A stretch of DNA of 64,000 nt from Albula goreensis (Eukaryota; Chordata; Actinopteri; Albuliformes; Albulidae): the NCBI GenBank assembly GCA_022829145.1, contig CM040751.1, forward strand, positions 2,483,364-2,547,363. Direction: 5' to 3'. Shown here piece by piece: positions 1-3,100 of the stretch. The translations under genes and the position numbers were made by a program. The notes under the pieces were generated by a model. The model was not told where the DNA came from. It made no database searches and saw only the letters and a program-made list of their open reading frames with translations. Each line of letters starts with the position of its first letter. Position 1 is the first letter of the stretch.

Positions 1-102
1 GCTGCAGGTGTATGGGCCCCGATTAGGCTGGAGGACAGTATGCGCAGATGACTGGGGTCAAAAGCACACTCAGACAGCCTGCAAGCAGCTTGGTTACATG
101 AA
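1..102 (+). CDS. tmprss4: tmprss4 exon: SRCR domain, first part
   Basis: Reads [20 protein letters not shown] and on to TACKQLGYM from base 2, the usual SRCR core with two cysteines. It ends in phase 2 at an AA|GTGAGT donor. The exon is cut by the left edge, so its acceptor is not seen. Its last 15 or so bases resemble the unit of the minisatellite that follows. Confidence 0.85.
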
Positions 103-3100
103 GTGAGTAACACCATGAGACCATAACATTATCTAAGGTACACACAATGAGGTATACCATGAGACTGCTTGTTACCTATGTAAGCAGTATCATTACATAG
201 GTTACATGCAGTGACTAACACCACAAGACTGTTACATTACCTAGGTTACACATAGGTAGTAACACCATGAGACTGTATCATTACCTAGGTTACGCACAGT
301 GAGTACCACCATGAGACTGTAACGACACTTAGGTTATACACAGTGAATAACACCATGAGACTGTAACGTTACCTAGGTTACACACAGTTACTACCACCAT
401 GAGACTAACGTTACCAAAGTTATACATAGTAAGCAACACCATATGACTGTAAAGTTACCTAGGTTACACACAGTGAGTACCACCATGAGACTGTAACGAT
501 ACCTAGGTCACACAGAGTACCACCATGAGACTGTAACGATGCTTTGGTAACACACAGTGAGTAACACCATGAGACTGTAACATTACCGAGGTTACACAAA
601 GTAAGTAACACCATGAGACTGTAACATTACCTAGGTTACACACAGTGAGTACAACCATGAGACTGTAACATTACCCAGGTTACACATAGTAAGTAACATC
701 ATGAGACTTTAACGATAACTAGGTCACACACAGTGAGTACAACCATGAGACTGTAACATTACCCAGGTTACACATAGTAAGTAACATCATGAGACTGTAA
801 CGATAACTAGGTCACACACAGTGAGTACCACCATGAGACTGTAACATTACCTAGGTGACACACATTCAAAAATATGAGGGGATGGCACACAGCCAATACA
901 GAACAGCTTCATGATACAAAGGTTACAAACAATTTTGTCAACAGGTCATTATTTATCGCTCCCATTACTTCACTGCTTATCTGCACTTTCATACCGCTGT
1001 TAATCCAGTTATACAGCTCATTATTTCCTGGAGTCATCCAGGTTTATCACACAATTCCAGGGCCCTACCCAGAAGCGCTGGCTAAAAACGTTGCCCTCAT
1101 TCCATGGACAGTGTTGCCCCATGCTCCGTTCAGCAATACTGTATGCAGCACCAGGGCAATGATGGCACTGGAAGCACATGAAAAACACGCTTTCAATTCC
1201 AGGCCTGAAATATACCCCCCTATTTCGCCGTCCCACTTTTATAAACGTCCATTGTGTACACCTCAAGGATGCAGCAAAAAAAGCTCCTTTCATGGGACTT
1301 ACGCTTCCTTTATCTCTATTCCAGCAAGCCTGAAGCTCAAACGTCGACCTACGCACCGTGTCGTCCTCGCTTAAGGCTTCTTTGTGCGGTGTGCGGTCCA
1401 ACGCAGCCCAGACCATTCCCATCCAGCAGCAGGTCTTTGAGCGGTAAGTCTTGACATTCAGCTTCATGTTCTACTCAGGATGAAAGTGGCTTTGGTTTAA
1501 TTCCCAGGCCCCTGATTGGCTGGATCAGCCACTCCTAAAGTGTGGGAAAAGAGGCAGGCAGTCCAGTTTCCTGTTCTAATGTGGCCACATGGTGTAGTGG
1601 TCCAATCCCGAATGAGTCTGACCCTAACCCGAGCAAGTCATCGCTATCTGCCCCATGCTATTTGAATGTTATTTGTGATGATCCAGCAGCCATTTTCGAT
1701 TTACGTGCAAGTACTTGCAACAATGCCGTCCCTGCATTGTTGGTCATTATTGCCTTCGTGTCACCTCATACACAGCACAATGTGCAAGGTGGTGATAGGA
1801 TGGCTTTGGAAATGATTCAGCACAGATGAGTGACAGTTGAATAATGGAGGTTTTTGTGTACCAGCCCATTAAAGAGCCCTGGGCATTGCAGTGGGTACAC
1901 TCATGCTCACTCTTCTGCAGCTGCTCTGTGTCCCTGCCCTCTGTCGTTGGCTGCCTGTCACTTACAGTACTGTATATTGTATAATACAGCCAGCCATGTA
2001 AAGGGATGTGGGTGGAGTTTTGGAGCTTTGTGACGGTTTGCTGACAGTTCTGCTGACGTTTCTCTGTCTTTTGTTTCTCAGGACGTCCTGTCCTTCTGGT
2101 GCAGTCGTTTCCCTCACCTGCTCAGGTGAGCCCTCCCCATGCCCCCGCCCCCTCCCTTATCCTCATGTAGCCCCCTCCTCCCCCCCTTCACTGACAGCTA
2201 GGAATTCTGCGCTTCCCCTCCTCCAGTTCCCCTCCATTATCTTCCTTCTGGAACATATACTCCAGGACCCAGCAGGCCATGTGAGATGCCATGGCAACAC
2301 GATCAAGATTTTGAGCGGGGGTTTCAGAGAACACTTGCATATGGAGATATATGAAAGCACACACACACAGGCAAACACAGGTAAACACACACACACACAC
2401 AGGCAAGCACATTCACTACACACACACACACACACACAGGCACACATTCACATCACACACATACACACTGGAACACAGACAAATACATTCACATCAGGCA
2501 CACACACACATATGTATACAAACAGACAAAAGCAAACTACTGATAGCATACGTAACAATGCATGACTGGACTTGCCTTCAACAACAGAAACCGAAACAGC
2601 AGCAGAAAAGTAGCTCATAAGCACTCATGGGTCATTAAATGCAGAGACACCACATCCAACACACTACGTTTCGGAGTGGCGTCCTCACCATCAGCCACAG
2701 AATGAGGAACACAGAGAGCCTGAGCATAGCCCTGTATCCCGAGTGCCAATATAATATATCACAAGTTGTACAATAAGCGTTTTCACATGAGGCAAAGAGT
2801 GTGTTTGTCTTGGTTAGGCAGCGTTGTTCAGGGTTAAACAGCCTCTCTGTGGTGCATTGTGGGTTTCAGACTGCGGGCAGAGGGCGGGACAGGATCGGAT
2901 TGTCGGAGGGACGGACGCCACCATCGAGGACTGGCCTTGGCAGGTCAGCCTGCAGCAGAGTGGCCAGCACACCTGCGGGGGGTCCCTGGTGTCGCCGCGG
3001 TGGGTCGTCACGGCAGCCCACTGCTTCTCTGGGTCAGTACACACAACTGCAAACAGAAGTTGTATTGGGTAAACAGAGGTTTTGTTTGTGTAAGTCATTT

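Follow-up and report, generated by a model that had tools for sequence, protein, structure and literature searches.

How does a tandem repeat come to lie directly against the end of a coding exon, and may it have grown out of that exon end? The question is raised by a stretch of 64,000 bases from the fish Albula goreensis (positions 2,483,364-2,547,363 of contig CM040751.1, within a 932-Mb genome; the whole stretch is referred to here as the window), in which an SRCR exon of a tmprss4-like gene is followed by an array of 44-bp units. An earlier note on this DNA had described a minisatellite at this exon-intron boundary and had proposed that it arose by repeated amplification of the junction. 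The presence of the minisatellite was borne out by Tandem Repeats Finder (TRF) and by wraparound alignment, which place it at 89-864, and the evidence presented below indicates that it is probably a splice-junction minisatellite of the kind named "mirages" in amphioxus.

A minisatellite at an exon-intron junction

The repeated unit spans the exon end together with the splice donor, and the array follows the native junction immediately, within the intron. Three other junctions of the genome show this architecture. TRF calls the array from 187 to 864 (period 44, 15.5 copies), and its leftward extension to 89 comes from wraparound alignment. When the native junction is taken as unit 1 (Table 1), 26/30 bases of the intron part agree with the consensus of the remaining units (27/30 with a TRF-like consensus); the claim that unit and junction match almost base for base does not hold for the exon part, which agrees at 10/14. 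Further support comes from the fixed register of the exon part, from the sharp left edge of the homology (11/44 upstream of 89) and from the ATG of the exon end, which is shared with unit 4.

Several null comparisons bear on the exon part. A score of 10/14 is attained by 36 of the 63,086 14-mers of the window and by 61 of 200,000 shuffles of its 14 bases; past base 900, the 14 nt in front of each of the 32 remaining GTRAGT sites score 7 at most against the unit consensus, and the exon-end scores at the seven other donor sites of the host gene, three of which were located by eye, are 0-5. Among 3,916 comparisons of exon windows and registers, 10/14 was obtained solely on the junction diagonal.

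Other findings weigh against derivation from the junction. Off-register matches of 9/14 occurred 13 times in the same 3,916 comparisons, so that the exon match is modest when taken alone, and, since the exon part reaches just 10/14, chance resemblance keeps a small probability in the window array. A likeness to GTTACACAC, located at the intron start of a paralogue of the gene, means that the 14 exon-like bases might be left over from intron sequence. Units farther from unit 1 are no less identical to it (rho 0.32, p 0.23). Finally, the unit phylogeny proposed in the earlier note, built here with 16 of the 18 units, turned out to be poorly resolved and uninformative, the split separating units 1 and 4 having 37% bootstrap support.

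Two small features of the array may be mentioned. Units 2-3 contain an inverted repeat (ACTGCTT...AAGCAGT, window 164-188), and AGGTTACAAACA, at window 920-931 and 56 bases beyond the array end, matches the unit core at 11/12 and is possibly the remnant of a longer array.

Sister arrays in the same genome

A protein search of the genome disclosed a paralogue of the host gene on a second contig (C2). Host gene and paralogue are each accompanied by another protease gene, at about 38 and 67 kb, and these two neighbours are alike, in keeping with duplication of a block or of the whole genome. Between host gene and paralogue, 32 of 60 four-fold sites are different. The SRCR donor of the paralogue, at the same position as that of the host gene, carries an array of five donor copies including the native one (four GTGAGT and one GTGGGT), spaced by 30-31 bp, with a unit made of 5 exon and 25 intron bases. 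The exon end, ACCCT, recurs exactly in two of the four downstream copies and as ACACT in the other two.

The same paralogue bears a second array after the exon that encodes the catalytic-His motif. Its 44-bp units comprise 29 exon and 15 intron bases, and GTCAGT is present 36 times counting the native donor, with some 35 copies after the native junction. The exon part is identical at 29/29 positions in the first downstream copy, at 26-29 positions in 29 of the 35 copies and at 3-22 in the other six. This array is cleaner as a junction array than that of the window, where, unlike in the paralogue, no junction array follows the His exon (2870..3032). The last case was found in a trypsin-like gene on contig C20 (locus L065), in which a 64-bp unit combines 14 bases of the exon with 50 of the intron, with six donors, and homology ends abruptly beyond the exon part (2-3 of 16).

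The unit sequences are unlike among the four junctions. In all four, reading through the native donor leads to a stop, which is immediate in the host gene, in the paralogue SRCR exon and in L065, and which for the His exon lies within the second unit. That the junction itself was amplified to give rise to the repeat is supported in the window array and clear in the sister arrays; the original proposal gains from the exon matches of the latter (29/29, and 14/14 in 5/5 copies) and is held back by the incomplete exon part in the window.

Donor copies, reading frame and splicing

About 17 GTGAGT-like donors had been counted by the earlier note, a figure that proved too high: intron 1 contains 10 GTRAGT sites including the native one, all of them inside the array, and exact GTGAGT accounts for seven, the native and six downstream. 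The first copy is not the only one in frame with the exon either, since the units at 197, 329, 503, 587 and 719 share its frame (offsets 108, 240, 414, 498 and 630), all of them behind the stop at 104-106. The frame past the native donor reads AAG TGA, so every later donor would yield an identical truncated protein; the predicted products of the downstream donors end in LGYMK-stop in 9/9 cases. By computation, an exon using a downstream donor would measure 323-845 nt, compared to 127 nt with the native one.

Computed pairing with U1 is about equal for the native donor (-5.2 kcal/mol) and for its nine downstream GTRAGT counterparts (-5.1 to -5.2 kcal/mol). For the native unit a hairpin is predicted (-9.9 kcal/mol, z -2.4, equalled in 4/200 shuffles), and the predicted folds of eight other units are weaker (-3.5 to -6.7 kcal/mol). 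Such a stronger fold of the native unit would hinder the native donor, not help it. No signal of selection was detected at the donor columns, the nonconsensus fraction being 0.156 in the donor, 0.116 in the exon part and 0.105 in the rest of the unit.

Origin of the array and alternative explanations

The birth of such an array can be envisaged as follows. A short segment across the exon end and the 5' splice site would have been tandemly duplicated, by slippage or by unequal exchange between short similar sequences, and the duplicated segment would then have expanded and become partly homogenised. Since the copies come to lie beyond the native donor, exon and first donor are left undamaged, and the array would be tolerated as intron while the exon-proximal donor is used. 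Transcripts spliced at a later donor would encode a truncated protein lacking the protease domain and would presumably be cleared by nonsense-mediated decay. The exon end itself predates the array, given that Gly-Tyr is also found in TMPRSS2 (by alignment) and Leu-Gly-Tyr in the paralogue.

It could be argued instead that the array grew from the intron only, that is, from the 30 bases beginning at the donor, and that the 14 exon-like bases are an older intron-start fragment or a chance likeness, coincidentally aligned. The exon part does match less well than the intron part (Fisher p 0.24, not significant), GTTACACAC is present at the paralogue's intron start, the terminal partial copy agrees with the unit consensus at 13/14 but with the exon at 9/14, and array births at short chance repeats, following the Haber-Louis model as cited in PMC6947457, would select for such a resemblance. 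What makes this explanation rather unlikely is the exact register of the exon-like bases to the donor, with nulls of about 3e-4 to 6e-4, together with the ATG common to unit 4 and the exon, and the inclusion of exon ends in three sister arrays, of which two reproduce them at 14/14 and 29/29. A dispersed or transposon-derived repeat placed by chance at an exon edge is the least probable of the explanations considered. Although the window is rich in minisatellites (19 hand-picked TRF arrays span 10,382 of its 64,000 bases), a genome search with two units gave 8/8 reported matches inside the window array and none elsewhere at E <= 0.1 (absence of a match not being proof of rarity), and this confinement speaks against a dispersed element, as does the nhmmer search of the window, with nothing significant outside the array (best E 0.5). 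An assembly artefact is likewise highly improbable: tandem arrays are difficult to assemble, but the units vary (64-98% pairwise identity) and four junctions carry unlike units.

A different proposal concerns function rather than origin, namely that the array provides decoy donors, tunable by copy number, which would lower protein output by means of the stops. The nearly equal U1 pairing of native and downstream donors points in this direction, as do the predicted hairpin at the native site, with its weaker counterparts in other units, and the boundary variable number tandem repeat (VNTR) of the human CBS gene, for which PMC5188458 associates more repeats with less enzyme activity. Yet the donor columns are not conserved above the rest of the unit, use of a later donor would lengthen the exon considerably, as indicated above, and amphioxus mirages have been suggested not to interfere with splicing (PMC3087553). 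We regard a decoy function as quite improbable, and the interpretation as a splice-junction minisatellite is retained in what follows.

One old array or two births

Since arrays occupy the same SRCR donor in both paralogues, their intron starts were compared. From intron position +7 to +25, the two units agree at 14/19, consensus to consensus, a score equalled or exceeded by 11 of 63,080 window 19-mers, and at 11/19 when unit 1 is compared with unit 1; the LDLa and His-exon introns score 4/19 each. Under neutral descent with no gaps, about 47% identity would be expected at the four-fold rate (distance about 0.93), so that 14/19 is just mildly high (p 0.017). From this comparison the intron starts at the SRCR donors of the two paralogues look homologous, and the array periods differ (44 vs 30). 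A broader proposal, possible but doubtful in our estimation, would regard splice donors in this fish lineage as recurrent birthplaces of minisatellites, with the array at the tmprss4 SRCR donor either predating the gene duplication or having arisen twice, and with the arrays acting as copy-number-variable decoy donors whose alternatives are all truncating.

Frequency of junction arrays

A junction was scored as positive when at least two downstream copies of its 20-mer (5 exon and 15 intron bases) were present at 15/20. By this measure, 4 of 63 distinct donor junctions of the protease family were positive, the starting case included; three of them belong to the two tmprss4 paralogues and one lies elsewhere. 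The figure of 63 results from 43 + 22 junction tests, because locus L028 lies inside L026. The survey left out 28 of the 77 protease matches (one of them partly covered by L030), two surveyed junctions (the second exons of L051 and L066) have <120 nt downstream, and the best GT close to the end of a match was accepted as donor, which surely misplaces some of them. In a control with kinase exons, for which 20 of 142 kinase matches were taken, 0/20 junctions were positive. Three kinase loci deserve a comment: in L087, with a kinase-like exon, a 32-bp array begins at intron base +7 (base 69 of the reverse complement), and its copies resemble the junction minus four donor bases; in L079 an array starts from about +6, with exon bases absent; and in L088 an array lies close to the end of the match.

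A set of 75 donors was also assembled, leaving out those with consensus <6 or with <430 nt downstream, as well as the kinase loci L080, L084, L088 and L093, which have no placeable donor. In this set, junction arrays were more frequent in the paralogue pair (3/11) than elsewhere (1/64; p 0.009), and also when the starting case was removed (2/10 vs 1/64; p 0.046). An array start falls within -60 to +400 of the donor in 18 of the 75, and 15 of these starts are at or before +148; the window array is placed at +84 in this list because TRF misses its decayed first units. Such clustering near donors may reflect a hotspot or a short-intron effect. Acceptor-side repeats were counted at four matches, three of them in the paralogue locus L024, one of these being the His-exon array approached from the exon that follows it. 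The acceptor-side repeat of L043 was discarded as a TG-rich tract.

Relation to known boundary repeats

The notion that such an origin is unusual needs to be qualified, since the class has already been published, both as the amphioxus mirages (PMC3087553) and as the human CBS VNTR (PMC2630376, PMC5188458). Mirages are minisatellite-like tandem duplications of exon-intron boundaries in the amphioxus Adh3 and globin genes, with units of 10-72 bp in Adh3; length and somatic instability are reported, and regular splicing is suggested to proceed without interference (PMC3087553). Mirages and the window array share a tandem unit with exon end, junction and intron start (14 + 30 bases here, the exon part at 10/14), and splice signals are kept in many copies, here 10 GTRAGT, native included, among 18 units; the units of the sister arrays (29 + 15, 5 + 25 and 14 + 50 exon and intron bases) agree with the mirage definition. 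The fish arrays differ in belonging to a vertebrate and in having been found on the donor side, whereas both sides are affected in amphioxus, and also, unlike mirages, in reaching up to 36 donor copies and in affecting the same donor in two paralogues.

The 31-bp VNTR of human CBS, c.1444_1467+7(16_21), contains by its name 24 exon and 7 intron bases in 16-21 copies (PMC2630376, PMC5188458), and is described in PMC5188458 as non-coding and located where exon 13 meets intron 13. Its unit, again by name, spans exon end and donor as in the window array, from which it differs in the gene (the host here has LDLa, SRCR and trypsin domains), in a mostly exonic unit and in a documented polymorphism with an effect on activity. 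Minisatellites at exon-intron boundaries are also described, as internal tandem repeats, for human genes within segmental duplications (PMC2812944); there they are linked to novel introns and to repeat-retaining transcripts, of which the window array gives no sign. No boundary minisatellite of a fish was found in the titles and opening abstract lines of the literature searched, which for several topics comprised the best-ranked 10 to 25 papers and included few subscription journals. The class itself being known, what is new is its occurrence in a fish, its recurrence in one genome and the involvement of the same donor in two paralogues.

With four boundary arrays among 63 protease-family donors, one of which repeats the end of a catalytic-His exon some 35 times, boundary minisatellites may be common in some vertebrate genomes. 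As natural test cases, they could serve to ask how the spliceosome chooses between donors that are nearly identical, whether repeated boundaries lead to intron gain and how copy number affects expression.

The host gene and other features of the window

The host gene presents an LDLa-SRCR-trypsin architecture (profile matches PF00057, PF15494 and PF00089). Its joined frame is open through the LDLa exon (L002:9481-9633), the SRCR exon, which starts outside the window at L002:9976 and totals 127 nt, and the four exons that follow in Table 1. The solved structures closest to the protein are TMPRSS2 and then hepsin. Near the opposite end of the window there are scn2b-like exons on the minus strand (~62.9-60.4 kb; about 60406-62928), matching the sodium channel beta subunit neighbour in the human gene order, TMPRSS4-SCN4B-SCN2B. 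The designation tmprss4-like is based on this neighbourhood and on domain architecture, and not on comparison with a TMPRSS4 sequence.

Table 1. Positions of the junction arrays, donor copies and host-gene exons (window coordinates unless a locus is given)
Feature	Position	Strand	Evidence or remark
44-bp junction minisatellite	89..864	+	18 numbered units and a 14-base partial copy; TRF, wraparound alignment, nhmmer
Unit 1, native junction (final 14 exon and initial 30 intron bases)	89..132	+	alignment to other units
Units 2-3, decayed, partly deleted	133..196	+	wraparound alignment
Unit 4, sole other aligned unit with T11 and G12 of the exon (ATG)	197..240	+	unit alignment
Terminal partial copy, exon-derived 14 columns alone	851..864	+	consensus match 13/14 (nhmmer)
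Native splice donor GTGAGT	103..108	+	phase-consistent open joined frame
In-frame TGA within the donor	104..106	+	stop for transcripts reading beyond the native donor (...LGYMK-stop)
Nine downstream GTRAGT donor copies	299..826	+	first bases 299, 473, 557, 601, 645, 689, 733, 777, 821
SRCR exon, 3' part	1..102	+	SRCR_2 match, open joined frame; ends ...CKQLGYM-AA, phase 2
Exon, end of SRCR region	1336..1443	+	open joined frame
Exon	2082..2125	+	open joined frame
Exon with catalytic-His motif TAAHC, donor GTCAGT	2870..3032	+	Trypsin match
Next protease exon	3199..3365	+	open joined frame, Trypsin match
Paralogue His-exon array	L024 (G000:C2:49289001-49299000), reverse-complement 7966-9700	minus	TRF 39.8 copies
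L065 junction array	L065 145-532		exon part 14/14 in 5/5 downstream copies

Six-frame Pfam scans for further exon-edge arrays, which covered neither positions 1-29999 and 45002-48997 of the minus strand nor the plus strand past 60001, gave just Trypsin, SRCR_2 and V-set above the cut-off. Three other arrays of the window can be added. A 14/28-bp array at 4200-4817 begins some 70 bases downstream of a further donor of the host gene, with no exon bases recognised by eye. A 35-bp array at 41016-41913 has a unit with the short inverted repeat GGTTACAGTGTGTAAC, which is similar to GGTTACACACAGTGAGTAAC in the junction array (not significant by nhmmer). Lastly, a 44-bp array at 60994-61581 lies between two of the scn2b-like exons, away from exon edges.
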